Positions 3,054-13,450 of a stretch of DNA of 20,866 bases are shown in pieces; positions within the stretch are counted from its first letter, which is position 1, and the number at the start of each line of letters is the position of its first letter. The notes beneath the pieces were generated by a model. It was not told the DNA's origin. It did not search any database and saw only the letters and a list, made by a program, of their open reading frames with translations. A program made the translations under genes and the position numbers. The DNA comes from a virus: positions 1 to 20,866 of IMG/VR virus record IMGVR_UViG_3300048839_000347; one strand, given 5' to 3'.

Positions 3054-3505
3054 CCAGCGATGACAACGACCGCATCGAACGCATCGCCCAAACCGCGGTC
3101 GCCCGCTGGCGGCACACCATCCGCCCCGCCGACCACGACGACCTCCTCCAAGAAGCACGCCTCGTCGTCTGGGCACACCTCCACATGCCCGACGGGCAAC
3201 TCGTACAGCTTGCACGCTGGCGGACCGTCGACGCCATGCGCCGCATGTGGCGCTCCGGACGCTCCCACCAGTTCGCCGACGCCCGACCCGCCGGTCTCCA
3301 CCCCGACGGGCAGCCCCACCACCACGACCCGACCGACCCTGTCCTCGACCGGGGACTCGTCGGCCGTCACGCCACCATCGCCTACGGGCTCGCCGCCGGC
3401 CTCACCAAGCAGGCGGTCGCCGAAACGCTCGGCGTACACCCGTCACGCATCAGCCAGATACTCCCCGCCATCCGCAACGAGATGACCGACCATGACCACG
3501 ACTGA
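3050..3505 (+). CDS. Sigma-70-like / helix-turn-helix regulator
   Basis: This is a 151-residue protein from GTG 3050, overlapping the DUF4406 stop. An N-terminal helical region includes HDDLLQEARLVVWAHLHM, resembling sigma-70 region 2 (the DLxQEaxxxlw pattern), followed by ARWRTVDAMRRMWR. After a His/Pro/Asp-rich linker, the C-terminus has KQAVAETLGVHPSRISQIL, a clear helix-turn-helix like sigma region 4. The size is that of a minimal phage sigma-like factor and well below a housekeeping sigma. It could redirect host RNA polymerase to phage promoters or act as a plain DNA-binding regulator. It overlaps the exonuclease gene by 14 bases. The linker is unlike the flanks in composition. Sigma function is inferred from pattern only. 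Confidence 0.6.
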   Translation: MTSDDNDRIERIAQTAVARWRHTIRPADHDDLLQEARLVVWAHLHMPDGQLVQLARWRTVDAMRRMWRSGRSHQFADARPAGLHPDGQPHHHDPTDPVLDRGLVGRHATIAYGLAAGLTKQAVAETLGVHPSRISQILPAIRNEMTDHDHD

Positions 3506-4514
3506 CACCGACACACTCCCTCAAGACGACCCCGCGTGGCACGCCTGGCGTAACGCCGGGATCACCGCCACCGACATCGCAGACGCAGCCGCAGGCACCT
3601 ACGGCGGCGCATACGGGGTTGTCGCACGCAAGACCGGCCGGCACGTCGTCGCACAGACCGCGCAGATGGCACGCGGGCACCGCTGGCAGCCCACCATCGC
3701 AGACGCCATCCACATCCTCACCGGACTCCACGTCGTCGGCGAAGAGACCTGGTGCGAACATGCGGACGACCCGCGCTGGCGTGCCACCGTCGACGGGTTC
3801 GCCGCACGGACACCCGAAGCGACCGTCGACCAGCTGTACGCCGTGGTCGAGATCAAGACCCGTGGGGTCGGCACCACACCCAACCGCGCACGCTGGGACC
3901 ACCAGATCCAATGGCAGATGCTCGTCACCGGACAGACCCGGGCGCTGCTCGCCGAAGCGGCCATCGACGACACCGACGACACGCTCGCAGGCATCCAGCT
4001 CCGCTGGATCGACGCCGACCCGGCCGCACAGATCATGCTCCAGTCCATCGCCGAAGACCTGTGGGCACACCTCCAAGCCGGCACCCTCCCAGACCCCGAC
4101 AGCGCCACCGCGCTCGACATCGTCAAAGCCGTCCACTGCGTCGCCAACCCCGAACCCGAACCCGTCGACCTCGAGCCGATCGCCGGCGACGTCGCCCGGT
4201 TCGTCGAGCTGCGCGACGCAGCCAAGACGATCGGCGAAGAACGCGACCGGCTCGAAGCACGGATCCGGGAAGCGGTCGGTGACCGGCACAGGGGCACCAC
4301 CGCCGGGCACACCGTCACGGTCAGCGCCGCGGCGAAAGTCATCACCGGCGACGCCGAAGCACAGCTTCTCGCCGACCATCCCGAGCTCGCACGCACCTGC
4401 CTCGACCGCAGCCTCGCCAAGAGCAAGGAATGGCGGCCGATCGTCGACACCTACCGTCGGGCCGCAGGCGCCCGACGGCTCACCATCACCACCCAAGGGG
4501 AGACAACACCATGA
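3492..4514 (+). CDS. YqaJ-family (lambda Exo-like) recombination exonuclease
   Basis: This is a 340-residue protein from ATG 3492. It matches the YqaJ / lambda-exonuclease PD-(D/E)XK family: N-terminal WHAWRNAGITATDIADAA (the W..WR..GitASdia signature), a G..W.P helix (RGHRWQPTIADAI), RATVDGF with Asp 101, VVEIKTR with Glu 120 and Lys 122 (the catalytic ExK), and DHQIQWQMLVTG with the conserved Gln pair at 138 and 140. Such enzymes resect one strand of double-stranded DNA ends to expose a 3' single strand. The position usually held by Glu before Pro in the G..xEP helix appears to be Gln 66. The C-terminal third is extended and partly coiled (residues ~235-260). The next gene is its annealing partner, joined by an ATGA overlap. 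Confidence 0.87.
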   Translation: MTTTDTDTLPQDDPAWHAWRNAGITATDIADAAAGTYGGAYGVVARKTGRHVVAQTAQMARGHRWQPTIADAIHILTGLHVVGEETWCEHADDPRWRATVDGFAARTPEATVDQLYAVVEIKTRGVGTTPNRARWDHQIQWQMLVTGQTRALLAEAAIDDTDDTLAGIQLRWIDADPAAQIMLQSIAEDLWAHLQAGTLPDPDSATALDIVKAVHCVANPEPEPVDLEPIAGDVARFVELRDAAKTIGEERDRLEARIREAVGDRHRGTTAGHTVTVSAAAKVITGDAEAQLLADHPELARTCLDRSLAKSKEWRPIVDTYRRAAGARRLTITTQGETTP

Positions 4515-5395
4515 GCGACACCACACCTGTGCTCCGCGCACGCACCACCACCGCACCCGCCACCATCACCGAAACCCACTCGGTCGACATGGCGAAAGCG
4601 ACCGCCATCGCGAAGGCCGGCGAACTCGTCCCGAAGGCGTACCGGGCGAACCCGGGCGCCGTACTCCTCGCGCTCGGCTGGGCCGACCAGCACGGCCTCG
4701 ACCCGTGGACCGCGATGGAATCAATGACGTTCATCCAGGGGAAGCGCACCATCTCCGCGGAGATGCAGGCAGCGCTCGCGGACCGGGCAGGGTTCCGTGT
4801 CACCCCCACCGACGTGTCGGACACGGCCGCCACCGTCGCAGTGGTCGACAAGCGCACCGGTGAGACCATCGGCCAGGCCACGTTCACGATCGACGACGCG
4901 AAGGCGATGGGTCTCACCGGCAAGGACAACTGGCGGAAGATGCCGAGGCAGATGCTCGTCGCCCGTGCCCGGACCATGGCGATCCGCTGGTTCTGCCCCG
5001 GGGTGCTCGTCGGACTTCACGACGCCGACGAGATCACCGATCCGGTCCACACCGTGACCGCCACCATCGACACCGCCGACAGCGGTGCAGCCCCGTCCGG
5101 GGAGGAGTCCCCCAACCCTCAGGTTGGGCGTCAGCCCGAGGGCTCCTCCTCGGACGACGTCGAGGACGCTGAGATCGTCGAAGAGACCGGTGAGACGATC
5201 AGCCCGGCCACACGGGGCAATGTCCGCGCCGCGATCGACATAGCGAAGGCCGCCGGCCGGTGGCCGCACCCGCTCGCCGACCAGTTCACCGACGCCGGAC
5301 TACCGATCGTCGCTAACAGGATGACGGAGACTCAAGGCCTCCTAGCGCTCGACCTCCTCGCCAACGACACCACCGACGGGAATGGGGAGCGGTGA
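4511..5395 (+). CDS. recT: RecT-family single-strand annealing protein
   Basis: This is a 294-residue protein starting at ATG 4511 (GGGGAG at 4498-4503, overlap with the exonuclease stop; a longer in-frame start at 4430 lies inside that gene). The RecT core is clear: NPGAVLLALGWADQHGLDPW, MESMTFIQGKRTISAEMQAA, KDNWRKMPRQMLVARARTMA, then RWFCPGVLVGLHDADEI. RecT proteins coat the single strands made by the partner exonuclease and anneal them to complementary DNA, supporting phage recombination and concatemer formation. The core ends near residue 180; a Ser/Glu-rich linker (where an inverted repeat lies in the DNA) leads to a small C-terminal helical domain (SPATRGNVRAAIDIAKAAGR), perhaps for partner or SSB binding. 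The gene pair with YqaJ is typical. Confidence 0.9.
   Translation: MSDTTPVLRARTTTAPATITETHSVDMAKATAIAKAGELVPKAYRANPGAVLLALGWADQHGLDPWTAMESMTFIQGKRTISAEMQAALADRAGFRVTPTDVSDTAATVAVVDKRTGETIGQATFTIDDAKAMGLTGKDNWRKMPRQMLVARARTMAIRWFCPGVLVGLHDADEITDPVHTVTATIDTADSGAAPSGEESPNPQVGRQPEGSSSDDVEDAEIVEETGETISPATRGNVRAAIDIAKAAGRWPHPLADQFTDAGLPIVANRMTETQGLLALDLLANDTTDGNGER
5101..5149 (+). repeat. Nested inverted repeat in the recT linker
   Basis: The inner stem CCCAACC (5111-5117) pairs perfectly with GGTTGGG (5122-5128) around a 4-base loop. Outside it GGAGGAG (5101-5107) pairs with CTCCTCC (5143-5149), with CC 5109-5110 able to pair with GG 5141-5142. The structure falls in the low-complexity linker between the RecT core and its C-terminal domain. 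It could be an mRNA structure that tunes downstream expression, a protein-binding site, or chance in GC-rich DNA. Confidence 0.55.
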
Positions 5396-5556: not shown

Positions 5557-5996
5557 CCCTCACCGTCACCATCCGATGCGACGCCAACCAGCTCGGACAG
5601 ATCCTCCACCCCGACGCCACCGTCCGCGTCATCCACGCAGGACCCAACCACCTCACCCTCGAAGCCGCCACAACGGCAGCACAGGACGTCTCCGACGCGC
5701 ACGGCACGGCAATGCCAGCGGAACCGGAGACCAGCCGGGAGGACCCGACCCCCTCCACGGGCCCTCCCGGCACCCTCGAAGACCAGATCCTCGCCGTCCT
5801 CGAAGACGGCCCCGCATCCACCCGGATCATCGCCGCCGAACTCGCCACCGGAATCGACCAGGTCCGCGACACCTGCCGTGCCCTCCACGACGGCGGCCAG
5901 ATCCGCTCCGCAGGCAACGCCGGCTGGAAACTCCCCCGCGTCATGCCGCCAGTCGACCACCAGGCCGCACGCGCACGGGCAGCAGAGGGGATCTGA
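5553..5996 (+). CDS. Hypothetical protein with C-terminal winged-helix-like domain (147 aa)
   Basis: ATG 5553 overlaps the previous stop. The N-terminal part (MTLTVTIRCDANQLGQIL, then TVRVIHAGPNHLTLEAA) looks like a small beta-rich domain. A Pro/Thr/Ser-rich linker follows (about residues 60-70), then TLEDQILAVLEDGPASTRII and GQIRSAGNAGWKL, which read as a winged helix: helix, helix-turn-helix, beta wing. Such domains bind DNA. Its position directly before a WhiB regulator and a replication-type winged-helix protein suggests a regulatory or replication accessory role, but this is inference. The stop overlaps the WhiB start by one base. Confidence 0.6.
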   Translation: MTLTVTIRCDANQLGQILHPDATVRVIHAGPNHLTLEAATTAAQDVSDAHGTAMPAEPETSREDPTPSTGPPGTLEDQILAVLEDGPASTRIIAAELATGIDQVRDTCRALHDGGQIRSAGNAGWKLPRVMPPVDHQAARARAAEGI

Positions 5997-6349
5997 TGGA
6001 CGACGACTGGTTCGACCGGGCGAAATGCCGGGGGATGGACACCGACGCTTTCTACCCGCACCGAGGCGAAGCGATCCCCGCCGACGTTGCCGCCGCCTGC
6101 GCCCGATGCCCGGTCGCCGCCGACTGCCTCGAATGGGCGGTCACCTGGCCCGAACATCACGGCGTGTGGGGAGGTGTCGGCGAGAGGACACGGATCCGGA
6201 TGCGACGCGCCCGCCGTCACGAAGGCCACCAGCAGCGATGCCGGGTGTGTGGCCGGACCTGGCAGCTCGACCCCGGCCAGGTCGCCTACCACTGCCCGGA
6301 CTGCCGGAGGGGCGGCCACCACCGCACCTCCGCACGGAGAGCCGGATGA
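5996..6349 (+). CDS. WhiB-family iron-sulfur transcriptional regulator with extra zinc-ribbon-like tail
   Basis: This is a 117-residue protein from ATG 5996 (AGAGGGG at 5984-5990; TGATG junction). The four WhiB cysteines are present with canonical spacing: Cys 11, Cys 35, Cys 38 and Cys 44 (C-x23-C-x2-C-x5-C), followed by the hallmark HHGVWGGVGE turn at 54-63 and a basic RIRMRRARR segment. WhiB proteins hold a 4Fe-4S cluster and act with the primary sigma factor to alter transcription; phage copies can repress host whiB2 and block superinfection. Unusually, the C-terminus continues into CRVCGRTW (Cys 83, 86) and HCPDCRRG (Cys 101, 104), a second four-Cys unit resembling a zinc ribbon. This family strongly suggests an actinobacterial host. 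Confidence 0.9.
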   Translation: MDDDWFDRAKCRGMDTDAFYPHRGEAIPADVAAACARCPVAADCLEWAVTWPEHHGVWGGVGERTRIRMRRARRHEGHQQRCRVCGRTWQLDPGQVAYHCPDCRRGGHHRTSARRAG

Positions 6350-7814: not shown

Positions 7815-8093
7815 ATGCCAGCACGCAACCGATCCCACTACCGAGGCGACTACGCACGGCGTGCCGCCGCCACACGCGCCGCCGCCTACGCCAACCCCGA
7901 CACACGATGCGCCCGATGCGGGCTCACCCTCGCCGCAGTCCCCGGATCAACATGGGACGCCGGTCACCTCCACGACGGTGTGCCCGAATCCCCGCTCCGT
8001 CCCGAGCACTCCACCTGCAACCGGACAGCAGGTGCACGGCTCGCCACACCAAGACGCCGAGCGCGACAGCTCAACACATCCCGCATCTGGTAA
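7815..8093 (+). CDS. HNH endonuclease (terminase-associated)
   Basis: This is a 92-residue protein starting at ATG 7815 after a G-rich leader. It carries an HNH pattern: CARC (Cys 32, 35), WDAGHLHDG with His 51, and LRPEHSTCNRTAGA with His 65, Cys 68 and Asn 69. The zinc-binding Cys pairs and the GHxxDG ... HxxCNxxAG arrangement are typical of small HNH proteins encoded beside terminases. In HK97-like cos phages such HNH proteins are needed with the terminase for DNA cleavage during packaging. Here that partnership may matter more than usual because the neighbouring large terminase appears to lack its own nuclease residues. It is the last gene with strong C bias before the composition switch. 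Confidence 0.85.
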   Translation: MPARNRSHYRGDYARRAAATRAAAYANPDTRCARCGLTLAAVPGSTWDAGHLHDGVPESPLRPEHSTCNRTAGARLATPRRRARQLNTSRIW

Positions 8094-8209
8094 CACGGGG
8101 AGGTGTCGGATGGGGGGGCGGGGCCGAAAGTTCGGTGCCTCCACAGCCGCTCACGACCCGCTCAGTCATCCCGGATGTGTGTGAGCGCAAGTTCCCCGAG
8201 GGGGTCCCG
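8094..8209 (+). other. Noncoding interval before small terminase; candidate packaging (cos) region and composition switch
   Basis: These 116 bases separate the C-rich early genes from the G-rich late genes. They hold a GGGGAGG (8097-8103), a run of seven G, a short inverted repeat CCGAA/TTCGG around AG (8132-8143) and CATC/GATG flanking CCG. The interval lies between HNH and terminase genes, where cos sites of related phage types are often found. No cos site can be proven from sequence alone. Confidence 0.35.
8110..8184 (+). CDS. Possible 24-aa peptide upstream of small terminase (doubtful)
   Basis: ATG 8110 has GGGGAGG six bases upstream, a good ribosome binding site. The frame MGGRGRKFGASTAAHDPLSH ends at TGA 8182-8184. 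A GRGxKFG start is reminiscent of small terminase N-termini, but the next gene begins in another frame at 8210, so this could be the remnant of a longer N-terminus or an unrelated leader peptide. Confidence 0.25.
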   Translation: MGGRGRKFGASTAAHDPLSHPGCV

Positions 8210-8440
8210 ATGGACCGTGTCGCTGATCTGAGGGCCGACTACGACCGTCTGGGGGAGATCCTGACCGGCGAGGTGGACGGGTCGACGGCGGCGGCGCTGG
8301 CTCGCGAGCGTCGGCTGATCGGCGAGTTGTTGGAGGCGCTCGAGGCGCCGGTGGAGGTGAGCCTTGCTGACCAGTTGGCTGCACGCCGAACCCGCGCCGG
8401 CGCTTCTCGTGTTGCCTCCCGCCGCCGCAAGTCTGGATGA
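8210..8440 (+). CDS. Putative small terminase subunit (short)
   Basis: This is a 76-residue protein from ATG 8210, with GAGGGGG at 8198-8204 as ribosome binding site. The sequence is helical and charged: MDRVADLRADYDRLGEILTG, then ARERRLIGELLEALEAP, then VSLADQLAARRTRAG and a basic end. The heptad-like helices followed by SxADxLAARR resemble the C-terminal part of actinophage small terminases, which form a ring that recognises the packaging site and loads the motor. No N-terminal helix-turn-helix is present, so it is short for the family. It lies directly before the large terminase and overlaps it by 77 bases in another frame. The call rests mainly on position and this C-terminal motif. Confidence 0.5.
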   Translation: MDRVADLRADYDRLGEILTGEVDGSTAAALARERRLIGELLEALEAPVEVSLADQLAARRTRAGASRVASRRRKSG

Positions 8441-9938
8441 GGCCCATGCGGCGATCGAGATGTGGGAGCACTACTCGGGGAAGGTGCTGGATGCGACGCA
8501 GCGTCTAGCGGTCGAGGTGATGATGGCGGAGTCGGTGGACGGCTTGTGGGCTGCGCCGACGACGGGCCGGGAGATGCCCCGCCAGAACGGCAAGGGCGAC
8601 GAGATCGAGGTCGTTGAGTTGTGGGGGCTGGTGCAGCGCTCGGAGGCGATTCTGCACACGATCCATGACGCCGTGTTGTTGGCTTCGCAAACTCAGCAGC
8701 GGATGCTCGCCGTGTTGGATCACCCGGATTTGCGGCGCAAGGTGAAACGCAAGTGGCAGGGGACCGGCCAGCAGATGATTGAGATGCGCAACGAGGGGTG
8801 CATCTGGTATCGGACGCGGACCGGTGGCGGCGGTCGTGGTGTGGATTTCATCGCCCGGCTGGTTGTGGATGAGGCGCAGCACGCCACGGACGAGCAGCTG
8901 GCTGCGGTGACGCCGACGTTGATGGCGCACCCGAATCCGCAGCTCAACGCTCTGGGGACGGCGGGGCTGGGGGGTGTGTCGGAGTGGTGGTGGCGTCAGA
9001 GGCGCCGTGCGTTGTCGGACGATCCTGGGGCGTTCGGCTATGTGGGGCACACTGCTCAACGGCCGAGGCTGGATGATCGTGGTGGGGTCGAGTTGCCGCC
9101 GGTTGACGTGTCGGACCGGTCGTTGTGGCTGGCGTCGAATCCGGCGGCGGCGGCCGGCCGTGGCGGGGGTATGGCGTACCTGGAGGAGCAGCTGCTCCGT
9201 CTGGGTGAGGACAAGTTCGCCCAGGAGCATCTCTGCGTGTGGGCGTCACCGCCGGTGGCGGCTGCGCGGGTGGCGAAGATTCCGGCGGACTCGTGGGAGT
9301 CCACCGTGGCGGAGCCGCCGGTGTTGGCGCCGGGTGAGGTGGTGGTGTCGTTCGCGGTGGAGCGCGACGGTGAGTGGGCTTCGGTTGCGGTTGCTGCGGG
9401 AGGTCTGTCGGCCCCGTATGTCGAGTTGGTGGATCATCAGCCTGGGGTCGGCTGGCTGCCGGCCCGGGTGCTCGGTCTGGTGCAGCGGTGGCAGCCGTCG
9501 GCGGTCGGGTGCAACGGGGCTGGGCCGACGGCTGCGGCTGTGGGGCCGGTGCTCGCGGAGCTTCGGGCGGCGGGTGTCACCATGGATGTGACCCAGCTCA
9601 CGACTAGCGCGTACAAGGCTGCGTGTGGCGGGTTTTTCTCTGATGTCGTCGAGGGCCGGTTGCGTCGGCGTGCGGATCAGGGGCCGTTGGACCTGGCGGT
9701 TGGTGATGCGACGGAGCGTCCGTTGGGGGATGCGTGGGCGTGGGATCGGCGGCAGGCGACGGTGCCGATTTCTCCGCTGGAGGCGGTGACGGTGGCGCGT
9801 GCGTTGCTGCCAACGGAGGTTCCAGCGGCGCCGTCTGTGCCGTCGGTTGCGGGTGGGGATGCGGCGGTTGAGGTCGAGTGGCTGGCGGAGATCGAACGTG
9901 AGGAGCTCCATGCGCTCGAAGCTCTCAACGGCCGCTGA
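8364..9938 (+). CDS. terL: Terminase large subunit (ATPase intact, nuclease motif residues apparently missing)
   Basis: This is a 524-residue packaging motor protein. The start is TTG 8364: GGAGG at 8353-8357 lies six bases upstream and an in-frame stop (8358-8360) excludes longer forms. The ATPase domain has Walker-A-like PRQNGKGD (72-79), Walker B LVVDEAQH (Asp 169, Glu 170) and a GTAG coupling motif. The C-terminal domain aligns with the actinophage RNase-H-like nuclease: VVVSFAVERDGEWASVAVA, then CNGAGPTAAAVGPVL, then DAWAWDRRQATVPISPLEAV. Where relatives have Asp in F-D-V, D-x-x-GP and D-I-S-P-L, this protein has Ala 331, Asn 384 and Pro 468. It may therefore pump DNA without cutting it and rely on the HNH neighbour. 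The terminase call is certain; nuclease loss is inferred from recalled family consensus. Confidence 0.92.
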   Translation: MLTSWLHAEPAPALLVLPPAAASLDEAHAAIEMWEHYSGKVLDATQRLAVEVMMAESVDGLWAAPTTGREMPRQNGKGDEIEVVELWGLVQRSEAILHTIHDAVLLASQTQQRMLAVLDHPDLRRKVKRKWQGTGQQMIEMRNEGCIWYRTRTGGGGRGVDFIARLVVDEAQHATDEQLAAVTPTLMAHPNPQLNALGTAGLGGVSEWWWRQRRRALSDDPGAFGYVGHTAQRPRLDDRGGVELPPVDVSDRSLWLASNPAAAAGRGGGMAYLEEQLLRLGEDKFAQEHLCVWASPPVAAARVAKIPADSWESTVAEPPVLAPGEVVVSFAVERDGEWASVAVAAGGLSAPYVELVDHQPGVGWLPARVLGLVQRWQPSAVGCNGAGPTAAAVGPVLAELRAAGVTMDVTQLTTSAYKAACGGFFSDVVEGRLRRRADQGPLDLAVGDATERPLGDAWAWDRRQATVPISPLEAVTVARALLPTEVPAAPSVPSVAGGDAAVEVEWLAEIEREELHALEALNGR

Positions 9939-10047
9939 GTTGGCCGGTCTTGTGATGGTTGTGGCGGCGGTGGCGTTCTGGTCGCCGGTCGTTGCTTTGG
10001 GTGTGGCGGGTGCGGTGTTGGTGGTGCTCGGGGTGGCTGTCGGATGA
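9910..10047 (+). CDS. Small membrane protein between terminase and portal (45 aa)
   Basis: ATG 9910 overlaps the end of the terminase gene by 29 bases, with GAGGAG at 9899-9904 as ribosome binding site. After MRSKLSTAAE the protein is almost wholly hydrophobic (LAGLVMVVAAVAFW, SPVVALGVAGAVLVVLGV), giving two short membrane spans with a tight turn. Small membrane proteins at this position are frequent in HK97-like actinophages; their role is unknown. It ends in an ATGA overlap with the portal gene, so translation is coupled. Confidence 0.65.
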   Translation: MRSKLSTAAELAGLVMVVAAVAFWSPVVALGVAGAVLVVLGVAVG

Positions 10048-11237
10048 GTGTGCTTCGCCGGTTGGTGGAGTCGAGGTCGTCGACGACGCCTGTGGCTGAC
10101 GCGGTGCGTGCCCGCCGGGATCCGGTGTCGTTGGATGTGACCCCTGATGTGGCGTTGCAGCATGCGGCGGTGTTCGCGTGTGTGCGGCTGATCGCCGAGG
10201 GTGTGGCCGCGTTGCCGGCTCACGCTTTCCGGCCGTCACCGGATGGGGATGCCCGGTTGCGGGTGTCGCCGCAGCCGCAGATTTTGACGGCTCCGCATCG
10301 TGACCTGACGGCGTTCGAGTGGCGGCGGCAGATTCTGGTGTCGATGCTGATGCGGGGCAACGGGTTCGCGTGGATCGATGGGACGGGCCGAGATGGGTGG
10401 CCGTTGTCGGCTACACCGTTGGATCCGGGGACGGTGACGCTTCGCTCGAGGGGGGACGGGTGGGAGTGGGCGGTGAACGGCCGGCCAGCTCAGCTACACA
10501 CGGCCGGCGGGTCGCTGGTCCACTTTCCGGCGTTCCAGGTGCCGGGGTCGCCTCTCGGTCTGTCGCCGTTGCAGGTGTCGGCGCAGACGGTTGGGGTCGG
10601 GTTGCAGGCGGAGCGGTTCGCTGGCCGCTGGTTCATTGACGGGGCGGCGCCGTCGTCGGTGTTGGAATCCGAAACGCAGATCGATGATGAGCAGGCGCGC
10701 CGGTTGCAGGCTCGTTGGATGGCGGCTCACGGGTCTGGTTCGCGGTTCCCTGCGGTGCTGTCTGGTGGGGTGACGTGGAAGCCGGTGACGATCACGCCGG
10801 AAGAATCCCAGTTTCTGCAAACCCAGCAGTTCTCGGTCGCTCAGATCGCCCGCCTGTTCGGGGTGCCACCTCACATGATCGGTGACACGGAACGGTCGAC
10901 GTCGTGGGGGTCTGGGATCGAACAGCAGCACATCGGCTATCTGACCCACACACTCGGCCCGTGGCTGCAGATGATCGATGGTCGGATGTCGACGCTGATC
11001 CCACGGGGCCAGTATGTGCGGTCGTCGACCGCTTCGCTGTTGCGGGCCGATTCGATGTCGCGTTTCCAGTCGTACGTGCAGGCCCGGATGGCCGGCTGGC
11101 TGTCAGTGAACGAGATCCGTGCGCTGGAGGAGATGCCGCCGGTGCCGGACGGGGACGGCTACCTGCAACCGTTGAACATGGGTCCTCTCGGTGTGGACCC
11201 CTTGACCACTCCGAGGTCGTCCGATGTCAGTGCGTGA
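10044..11237 (+). CDS. HK97-type portal protein
   Basis: This is a 397-residue protein from ATG 10044. Diagnostic segments are HAAVFACVRLIAEGVAALPA near residue 50, GNGFAWIDGTGRDG, a SPLGLSPLQ segment, and QIARLFGVPPHMIGDTERST followed by a QQHIGYLTHTLGPW helix near residues 265-300. These define the HK97-family portal, a dodecameric ring at one capsid vertex through which DNA enters and leaves and to which the terminase docks. The length is normal for the family. The C-terminus ends in a short Pro/Asp-rich tail. It overlaps the protease gene by 14 bases. Confidence 0.93.
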   Translation: MSVLRRLVESRSSTTPVADAVRARRDPVSLDVTPDVALQHAAVFACVRLIAEGVAALPAHAFRPSPDGDARLRVSPQPQILTAPHRDLTAFEWRRQILVSMLMRGNGFAWIDGTGRDGWPLSATPLDPGTVTLRSRGDGWEWAVNGRPAQLHTAGGSLVHFPAFQVPGSPLGLSPLQVSAQTVGVGLQAERFAGRWFIDGAAPSSVLESETQIDDEQARRLQARWMAAHGSGSRFPAVLSGGVTWKPVTITPEESQFLQTQQFSVAQIARLFGVPPHMIGDTERSTSWGSGIEQQHIGYLTHTLGPWLQMIDGRMSTLIPRGQYVRSSTASLLRADSMSRFQSYVQARMAGWLSVNEIRALEEMPPVPDGDGYLQPLNMGPLGVDPLTTPRSSDVSA

Positions 11238-11934
11238 TCTCCGCAACCTGCCCGCCCCTGTGTTGGACCGCCTGTCGGCGGTCGTCGCTGATGACGCGCC
11301 GGGTGAGGGTGTGCGTGCCGATGTCGACGCGCTGCGCCGCGGGCAACTGCTGAATGCCCGGTCGTTCAGCGTGGAGACCCGGGCGAACGATGACGGGTCG
11401 GTGACGGTCGACGGGTATGCGACCGTGTACGACTACCCATACGACGTGGCCGGCGGCCCGCCTTACGGGTGGACGGAAACGATCCGCCAGGGCGCAGCGG
11501 CGAAGTCGGTGGCGGAACAGGATCCGGTCGGCCTGCTCATCAACCATGACTCTGACACCGCGTTCGGTCTGCCGGTGGCGGCGACGTGGGCGGAGACGCT
11601 CACTCTCGACTCGGACCGGCATGGTCTGCGGATCGACGGCCGGCTCGCTCCCGGTGACGTCGTGACCGACTTCCTGATCCGCCGCCTCGACCGGGGTGAG
11701 GCTCACGCGATGTCGTTCGCGTTCCGTGTGCTCCGCCAGGAGTGGGACGAGGACTACACCGAGCGGACCATCACCGAGCTCGGGCTCGTCGACGTGTCGG
11801 TCGTGACGTATCCGGCGAACCCTGCGACGGTCGCACTGCTGCGTGCCGAGCGGATCGCCGGGCCGTCCCGCCGTCGTGCGTCGGTCGCCCGGTACATGGC
11901 CGAGGCTGAACGGTTACGGCTTGCCATTCCCTGA
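11224..11934 (+). CDS. HK97-family prohead protease
   Basis: This is a 236-residue protein from ATG 11224. It contains SVTVDGYATVYD, LLINHDSDTAFGLPVA with the expected catalytic His 108, AHAMSFAFRVLRQEW with the expected catalytic Ser 164, and ELGLVDVSVVTYPANP. This is the U35/herpesvirus-assemblin-like protease that assembles inside the procapsid, removes the N-terminal delta domain of the major capsid protein and then degrades itself. The first ~45 residues are a nonconserved leader and the C-terminus is Arg-rich. The position between portal and capsid genes is canonical. Confidence 0.92.
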   Translation: MSVRDLRNLPAPVLDRLSAVVADDAPGEGVRADVDALRRGQLLNARSFSVETRANDDGSVTVDGYATVYDYPYDVAGGPPYGWTETIRQGAAAKSVAEQDPVGLLINHDSDTAFGLPVAATWAETLTLDSDRHGLRIDGRLAPGDVVTDFLIRRLDRGEAHAMSFAFRVLRQEWDEDYTERTITELGLVDVSVVTYPANPATVALLRAERIAGPSRRRASVARYMAEAERLRLAIP

Positions 11935-12064: not shown

Positions 12065-13450
12065 ATGCTGGAGCAGATTCGCGCGCACCTGCGCGCCATC
12101 CTCACCGAGCGCGCCGAACGTCAAGGCGAGCTCGACTCGATCCTCGACGGCGCCGAAGCCCGTGGCGACGGCGACCTGACCGACGCCGAGCAGACCGCTT
12201 TCCGTGCGGCTGCCGACCAGATCCGCGGGCTCGACGAGCAGCGCGGCCAGCTCGAGGGGCGCATCGCCGAGCTGGAAGCCGCGGCGGAGGCCCGTACGGC
12301 AGCCGAAGCCGCGGAGGCCCGGCTCGGGCTGATCCCGCCCGCCGGCACCCCGGCCGCTCCCGCTGTGGTGCGTTCCGAAGAGCGCACCTACTCGCCGGGC
12401 TCCGCCCGTCGTGGCGTGTCGTTCGTGGCCGACGTGCTCGCCGGCCATCAGGGCGACCCCGATGCTCAGGCGAGGCTGGTGCAGCACCGCCGCGAGAACG
12501 ACGCTGACGGTGTCGAGGTCCGTGCCATCGGCACGGGTGCCCTCGCCGGTCTGACCGTCCCGCAGTACCTGACCGACATGGTCGCACCGGTGGCCCGTGC
12601 CATGCGCCCGTTCGCGGACGTGTGCAACAGCCACCAGCTGCCCGGTTCGGGGATGACCGTGAACATCTCCAGGGTCACGACCGGCACGTCGGCTGCGATC
12701 CAGGCGTCGGAGAACGCTTCGGTGTCGGAGACGAACCTGGACGACACGCTGCTCACGGTCGACGTGCGGACGATCGCCGGCCAGCAGACGATCTCAGCGC
12801 AGGCGCTCGCCCGTTCCGAGGGTGCCGACGAGATCGTGATCTCCGATCTGGTCCGGGCGTACCACACGGCGCTCGACTCGTCGATCCTGAACAACGACGG
12901 CACCTCCGGCACCCATCTCGGGGTCCGCAACGTGTCCGGCAACGTCGGGGTCACCTACACCGACGCCAGCCCGACCGCTGCGGAGGCGTGGCCGAAGCTG
13001 TTCGACCTCGTCCAGCAGATTCAGGGTGGCGTGTTCCTCGGCCCGTCGCACTTCATCATGCATCCGCGCAGGTTCTGGTGGTTCGCCTCCTCCGTCGGGA
13101 CGAACTTCCCGTTCATCCAGCTGTCGGGGATCAACCAGCAGGGCGGAGAGGTGTCGTCGTTCGGGTACGGCAACGGCCCGTCCGGCATCCTCGCCGGCAT
13201 CCCGGTGATCGTCGACGCCAACCTGCCGACGAACATCGGTGCGGGCACGAACGAGGATCCGATCCTCGCGGTGGTCGGCGAGGAGTGCCATCTGTGGGAG
13301 GACCCCGGTCCCCTCCAGGTGAAGGTCGACGTTCCGGCGTCGCTCGGCACGACTCTCTCGGTGTACGGGTTCTCGGCGTTCACCGCCGGCCGGTACCCGC
13401 TGGCGACCGGTGACATCACCGGTACCGGTCTGGTCACTCCGACGTTCTGA
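12065..13450 (+). CDS. HK97-fold major capsid protein
   Basis: This is a 461-residue protein from ATG 12065 with GAAAGGA upstream. Residues 1-~87 form a charged coiled coil (ERAERQGELDSILDGAEARG ... LEAAAEARTAAEA), the delta domain that acts as internal scaffold. The cleavage region by the upstream protease probably lies about 103-118, after VVRSEERTYSPG. The mature HK97 fold follows, with VPQYLTDMVAPVARAMRPFA, NISRVTTGTSAAIQASENAS, HPRRFWWFASSV, the P-domain/A-domain segment FGYGNGPSGILAGIPVIVDA and a terminal LSVYGFSAFTAGRYP. It is set apart by a leader hairpin and a strong downstream stem, consistent with the need for many copies. Confidence 0.95.
   Translation: MLEQIRAHLRAILTERAERQGELDSILDGAEARGDGDLTDAEQTAFRAAADQIRGLDEQRGQLEGRIAELEAAAEARTAAEAAEARLGLIPPAGTPAAPAVVRSEERTYSPGSARRGVSFVADVLAGHQGDPDAQARLVQHRRENDADGVEVRAIGTGALAGLTVPQYLTDMVAPVARAMRPFADVCNSHQLPGSGMTVNISRVTTGTSAAIQASENASVSETNLDDTLLTVDVRTIAGQQTISAQALARSEGADEIVISDLVRAYHTALDSSILNNDGTSGTHLGVRNVSGNVGVTYTDASPTAAEAWPKLFDLVQQIQGGVFLGPSHFIMHPRRFWWFASSVGTNFPFIQLSGINQQGGEVSSFGYGNGPSGILAGIPVIVDANLPTNIGAGTNEDPILAVVGEECHLWEDPGPLQVKVDVPASLGTTLSVYGFSAFTAGRYPLATGDITGTGLVTPTF

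Follow-up and report, generated by a model that had tools for sequence, protein, structure and literature searches.

Loss of canonical metal ligands from the terminase nuclease domain across a lineage of phages with an HNH gene beside a predicted cos site

Introduction

In cos phages that carry an HNH endonuclease gene, it is unsettled which protein cuts the two DNA strands, the large terminase subunit (TerL), the HNH protein, or the two together. The HNH protein gp74 of phage HK97 promotes cos cleavage in vitro (PMC9410871), and the division of the strands between TerL and gp74 was left open (PMC11331095). Packaging motors of the phi29 type have a vestigial nuclease domain and need no cut (PMC9410871). 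Vestigial nuclease domains and HNH partners are, therefore, each already known, from phi29-type motors and from HK97, respectively. Here, the terL gene of a virus record from IMG/VR, IMGVR_UViG_3300048839_000347, is described; the whole record of 20,866 bases is called the window. Its product is very likely a TerL without the canonical nuclease, and an HNH gene lies beside a predicted cos site upstream of terL. We searched the literature for a TerL whose nuclease is inactive and which is paired with an HNH protein and found no such case; to our knowledge, the combination of a vestigial nuclease and an HNH partner in a cos phage is undescribed in the literature searched.

The locus resembles that of HK97 (gp2, gp1, and gp74) in the fold of TerL, in a putative terS gene adjoining terL, in probably fixed genome ends and in an HNH gene beside cos. 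The HNH gene of HK97, gp74, is at the right end of the genome beside cos. Whereas HK97 TerL has an intact set of ligands, D302, D388, and D471, A331 and N384 replace the first two here and the third is absent as well; furthermore, the HNH protein is of an AGH subtype, whereas that of HK97 is of the DH subtype. As judged from its sequence, TerL shares with phi29 gp16 and asccphi28 gp11 an RNase H-like domain that is vestigial and inactive and is joined to an ATPase. However, phi29-type ATPases package a unit-length, protein-capped genome without TerS and without a cut, whereas a terS-like gene and joined cos junctions are found here.

Two groups of cultivated phages are also close in organization. 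The Pahexavirus phages of Cutibacterium acnes (PAS50/PA6 and KIT09) are siphoviruses with reported 3' cohesive ends, the overhang of KIT09 being 11 nt, and they combine a TerL that has no acid at 331 or 384 with an HNH gene at the right end. In PAS50, gp2 (L110:378-1889) has SFSRS and VAGSG at the first two ligand positions, the HNH protein is gp48, and the genome ends have single-stranded extensions. Unlike in the window, the third site is ambiguous (SEVPL); the nuclease domain is a distant relative, and its residues were lost separately. The loss of the first two acids in PAS50 seems to be an independent one. The Arthrobacter phage BaileyBlu and the loci L058 and L063 share with the window the layout HNH gene, genome end, terL, portal and protease, as well as a similar end motif, but TerL of BaileyBlu and L063 keeps D331, D384, and D468.

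The Nuclease Domain of TerL

The gene and the positions that matter here are the following, all on the plus strand.

8364-9938, plus strand: terL; TTG start, open and full-length reading frame of 524 amino acids, with the ATPase domain at residues ~1-300 and a degenerate RNase H-like nuclease domain at ~302-490
8577-8603, plus strand: ATPase motif PRQNGKGDE (residues 72-80), intact
8862-8879, plus strand: Walker B-like motif VVDEAQ (residues 167-172), intact
9354-9356, plus strand: codon 331 (Ala), first metal-ligand position, aligned with D302 of HK97
9513-9515, plus strand: codon 384 (Asn), second metal-ligand position, Asp in related TerLs
9765-9767, plus strand: codon 468 (Pro), the usual Asp of VDISPL in relatives

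TerL matches the TerL family phrog_9 (E 9e-33) but no Pfam model. Its ATPase half is intact, as the first-pass annotation of this DNA had proposed: RQNGKG (R73-G78) and D169, E170, A171, and Q172 of DEAQ are invariant in 14 close relatives. The AlphaFold2 (AF2) model of TerL has a mean predicted local distance difference test (pLDDT) score of 92.9, and its closest structure in the PDB is HK97 TerL (6z6d, Z 25.4). The RNase H fold is kept, with Z-scores of 14-16 against the nuclease domains of Sf6 and G20c and of 13-16 against terminase nuclease domains. Within this fold, the three-acid, two-metal nuclease center is absent at the aligned positions: the translation has Ala331, Asn384, and Pro468, just as annotated in the first pass.

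Misalignment as the cause of the missing acids was considered and ruled out. In a profile-profile comparison between 19 sequences of the window's nuclease-domain type and 12 related domains in which the residues are retained (100% probability, E 4.5e-43, 169 columns), FAV and FDV, CNGAGP and VDxxGPAG, and VPISPL and VDISPL are in register with zero gaps at the three motif positions, which bears out the earlier judgment that the three changes are unlikely to reflect misalignment. Related TerLs mostly have Asp at the three positions; of the 16 comparison relatives that we had picked as intact, all are acidic at 331 and 384, and 13 at 468. A331 aligns with D302 of HK97. For D388 of HK97, HHalign gave no reliable alignment; via the intact relatives, N384 aligns with an Asp of G20c TerL in VVADTWG, by chain count D347. 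G20c TerL cannot do without D294, D347, and D429, and its activity is lowest when Asn replaces them (PMC5389553). Since D347N is among the least active of these mutants, N384 looks like a naturally occurring counterpart of an inactivating mutation. Of the three losses, the one at 468 has the weakest evidence, because HHalign and HMMER place D471 of HK97 opposite S470 instead of P468 and because a few relatives with D331 and D384 have no acid at 468 either (Pro in L046 and Ala in L051). Neither P468 nor S470 is acidic.

Compensation at the first site by Glu333 or Asp335, suggested in the first pass, is not supported, as these residues are not conserved: position 333 varies between A, S, D, N, E, and others, and position 335 is D in just 32 of 60 sequences and G in 25. 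Erosion at a single site is not rare elsewhere in the TerL family, with Gln384 in Gardann and L052-L060, Tyr331 in L064-L066 and His331 in Shagrat.

Distribution in the Lineage and Selection

A first scan gave 77 related viral loci, and a scan with the nuclease domain added more. The nuclease-domain sequences of the window's type form one clade (98-99% support in the SH-aLRT branch test) apart from the intact relatives, and 59 distinct sequences of the clade, all from metagenomic phages, cover the three sites. An acid is lacking at 384 in 49 of the 59, at 468 in 58 and at 331 in 17. All three acids are lacking in 16, including the window, and no sequence has all three. These counts support the view that the loss of canonical metal ligands, proposed earlier for the window, extends to the whole lineage. 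The carriers are a group of uncultured, probably actinobacterial phages that is widespread.

The ratio of nonsynonymous to synonymous substitution rates (dN/dS) of the nuclease domain is 0.155 between the window and L001 and 0.13-0.14 in two other informative pairs, similar to or below that of the ATPase domain. Because the RNase H fold is kept and the domain is under purifying selection, it must be maintained for some role.

Genome Ends and the HNH Gene

Three features lie directly upstream of terL or overlap its start.

7815-8093, plus strand: HNH endonuclease gene, 92 amino acids, AGH/PE/CN subtype, directly left of the predicted cos
8155-8185, plus strand: predicted cos region, from the left ends of contigs and spanning junctions
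8210-8440, plus strand: terS-like small open reading frame, 76 amino acids, beginning MDRVADLRADYDRLGEIL, overlapping the start of terL and assigned by position

Many contigs start ~200 or ~420 bases ahead of terL, and in 20 distinct sequences the contig start lies 6-23 nt 5' of a conserved motif of the TGTGTG type or the CTCTCTCTA type, which sits just upstream of terS-terL. Contigs that span the junction, among them the window, L003, L005, and L008, show GACCC(C)G-N(10-15)-motif, and the right end of a record of 31,383 bp (G017) falls exactly at GACCCCG, i.e., the left half of the spanning junctions. Cultivated phages open with the same motifs, BaileyBlu with ATTTTTGTGTG (more fully, AGTGCCATTTTTGTGTGC) and Gardann with TTTCTCTCTC (more fully, AGCGACATTTCTCTCTCC). 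Because of these reproducible ends, spanning junctions and shared motifs, the ends of these phages are probably fixed and cohesive; overhangs would not be visible in assembled contigs. In the window, the predicted cos reads GACCCGCTCA followed by GTCATCCCGGATGTGTGTGAG, with the boundary, between 8164 and 8165, at the first base of contig L001, and the junction is predicted at ~8155-8185, between the HNH gene and the terS-like frame. A joined cos region that is flanked by genes to its left and right is present in the window and in at least seven further loci; thus, joined genomes exist and a cut is required. The terS-like frame, which has neither a PHROG nor another family match, is kept just inside the left end of the relatives.

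The HNH gene annotated at 7815-8093 in the first pass is present; its product matches the HNH endonuclease family phrog_1808 (E 2e-4) but has no Pfam match of its own. Its AF2 model is a strand-strand-helix. In the family of its relatives, C32 and H51 are invariant, C35, C68, and N69 are nearly so, and an SRxW-like motif is conserved at the C-terminus. In those examined loci whose sequence extends to it, the gene lies directly left of the junction, in some cases with ~1 kb inserted; G002 and G017 have it at their right ends. It stands beside the ends, too, in relatives whose TerL is intact or partly intact (BaileyBlu gp63, EmiRose gp46, L049, and L063). Hence, the HNH gene is ancestral, and the idea that it was gained as a replacement after the loss is rejected. 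As for the interval between the HNH gene and cos, a second HNH-like open reading frame (L149:655-1833, in the L003 region) is inserted there, and L008, L037, and L038 also have inserts at this place, which range from several hundred bases to 1 kb.

Exchange of the TerL Halves and Inheritance of the HNH Type

The identities of the ATPase half and the nuclease half of TerL to one reference often disagree. L030 and L019 are 99% identical in the nuclease half and 46% in the ATPase half, and L031 and L042 are 88 and 82% identical to L005 in the nuclease half and 34 and 25% in the ATPase half. The two halves have, by these comparisons, been exchanged between lineages. The ATPase lineage of the window (17 sequences, 100% support) carries at least three types of nuclease half, and an acid at 384 is lacking in all 17 of its TerLs. 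L011-L017 and L023-L026 combine a window-type ATPase with different nuclease halves whose residue pattern is another one (e.g., ATSPDR, KSGPE, and VEITPL) and which possibly have a rearranged site.

On the DNA, the HNH gene is separated from the part of terL for the C-terminal domain by that for the ATPase domain, yet the similarity of the HNH proteins tracks the type of the C-terminal domain. In a partial Mantel test on identities in 33 phages, HNH similarity was correlated with that of the C-terminal domain when the ATPase domain was accounted for (partial r 0.45, p 0.0005), whilst its correlation with the ATPase domain, given the C-terminal domain, was not significant (0.06, p 0.22). Within the clade, the likeness of the HNH proteins is 0.53 and 0.54 for like and unlike ATPase domains, respectively, as compared to 0.30 to other clades. 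No association between the HNH protein and the C-terminal domain was found within the clade alone.

A Proposed Division of Labor Between TerL and the HNH Protein

With moderate confidence, we favor the reading that TerL is a motor with a vestigial nuclease domain and that the HNH protein cuts cos. If TerL indeed has no canonical nuclease, it is likely that the HNH protein does the cutting. Replication would yield joined copies of the genome, with the cut made at the fixed cos between the HNH gene and terS-terL. The RNase H-like C-terminal domain, without its two-metal site, would be kept as a structural platform, i.e., a guide for DNA or a docking surface. The HNH protein would be held at cos through TerS/TerL, most likely through the C-terminal domain of TerL, and would make the cos cuts, whilst the ATP-driven TerL motor would package the DNA as in HK97. 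The HNH protein had been put forward in the first pass as the other nuclease; that it adjoins cos, that its type is inherited together with that of the nuclease domain and that fixed ends seem to persist all agree with this. The cutting itself is inferred, as are the lack of nuclease activity in TerL, the activity of the HNH protein and its docking to TerL. A more complete account, i.e., a cos lineage in which the terminase nuclease is functionally replaced, with a pseudonuclease TerL recruiting an HNH protein and the pair being inherited together whilst ATPase domains are exchanged, is tentative and slightly less likely than not.

Several observations weigh against this division of labor. Ten members of the clade keep both D331 and D384, and therefore part of the clade may still cut. 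New, near-invariant charged residues of the clade might form another metal site. In the HNH protein, Gly instead of the usual Asp precedes the conserved His, and its model resembles known HNH folds only weakly (Z 5.0-5.5 with Hpy99I, ZRANB3, and T4 endo VII; VIA-align), with no HNH match at E < 0.001 in a Foldseek search; for these reasons, its activity is likely yet not proven. For HK97, the description of gp74 is that it stimulates the cleavage carried out by TerL and not that it cuts by itself. Finally, since the signal is found between clades only, the coupling of the HNH protein to the C-terminal domain rests on few independent events.

The new charged residues are the basis of an alternative that we consider unlikely, in which TerL still cuts with a relocated site composed of D427, E430, D443, and E451, perhaps with D456 or D461. 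These four acids are near-invariant in the clade (E430 and D443 in 66 of 67 sequences, D427 in 63, and E451 in 62) and scarce in relatives with the canonical residues (5, 3, 0, and 0 of 16 for E430, D443, D427, and E451, respectively). In RNase H-like nucleases, however, the metal is bound where strands 1 and 4 end, whereas the new acids of the AF2 model are found on the third helix, beyond it and where the hairpin begins. We know of no TerL with such a relocated site. Moreover, K305 and R435 are further clade-specific, near-invariant charged residues and, with the fixed R463 that accompanies the new acids, they fit salt bridges or an interaction surface; together, K305, D427, E430, R435, D443, and E451 suggest salt bridges or a docking surface. 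Quite unlikely, in our view, is that the cutting is shared, with TerL keeping a weak or one-strand nicking activity and the HNH protein cutting the other strand. For HK97, the cutting of one strand by TerL and one by gp74 was proposed (PMC11331095), and to the ten clade members with D331 and D384 can be added 32 that keep an acid at 331. However, all three positions are without an acid in 16 sequences, among them the window, and the D-to-N change at the second nearly abolishes the activity of G20c TerL (PMC5389553).

That another phage or host nuclease makes the ends and the HNH protein has a different role, e.g., in homing, is very unlikely. The window does encode a RecE-like exonuclease and the catalytic residues of the HNH protein are of the atypical AGH type, but an HNH gene with the conserved SRxW-like motif occupies the same place at the cos side in many lineages, including relatives with a canonical TerL, and the equivalent HNH protein of HK97 acts at cos. 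The inactive nuclease domain of phi29-type motors (PMC9410871) would have a parallel here if unit-length genomes were packaged and the domain were free to decay; the required cut at the joined cos regions and the resemblance of the fixed ends to those of cultivated cos phages make this hardly credible. The same can be said of a sequencing artifact or a defective element, the latter raised in the first pass, for which the missing residues are the sole argument: the same state recurs in dozens of phages that are independent of one another (~59 distinct sequences, which stem from many metagenomes), the reading frames are intact and the dN/dS of the domain is 0.13-0.16, and a defect is therefore rejected. 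Among these explanations, the division of labor with the HNH protein appears to be the best supported.

A TerL without metal ligands separates the two activities, and the question of which protein cuts thus becomes directly testable in a natural lineage. If the division of labor is true, the terminase nuclease domain does more than catalyze cleavage in general. The cultivated Cutibacterium phages with their similar loss offer a practical and immediate test system.

Other Features of the Window

Downstream of terL, further packaging and head genes follow.

10044-11237, plus strand: portal protein (PF04860, 2e-83)
11224-11934, plus strand: prohead protease (PF04586, 1e-28)
12065-13450, plus strand: major capsid protein (PF05065, 8e-15; phrog_2263)

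The packaging gene order TerS-TerL-portal-protease-capsid is, therefore, present in the window, with TerS assigned by position only. A search of the GTDB genomes for a host found none, the sole match being a distant one to a Corynebacterium contig at 29%; a gene for a WhiB-like regulator at ~5951-6349 suggests an actinobacterial host. Genes for a RecE-like exonuclease and then a RecT-like annealing protein are found at 3492-5395, and a C5-cytosine DNA methyltransferase gene (548-2023) lies upstream of these recombination genes.
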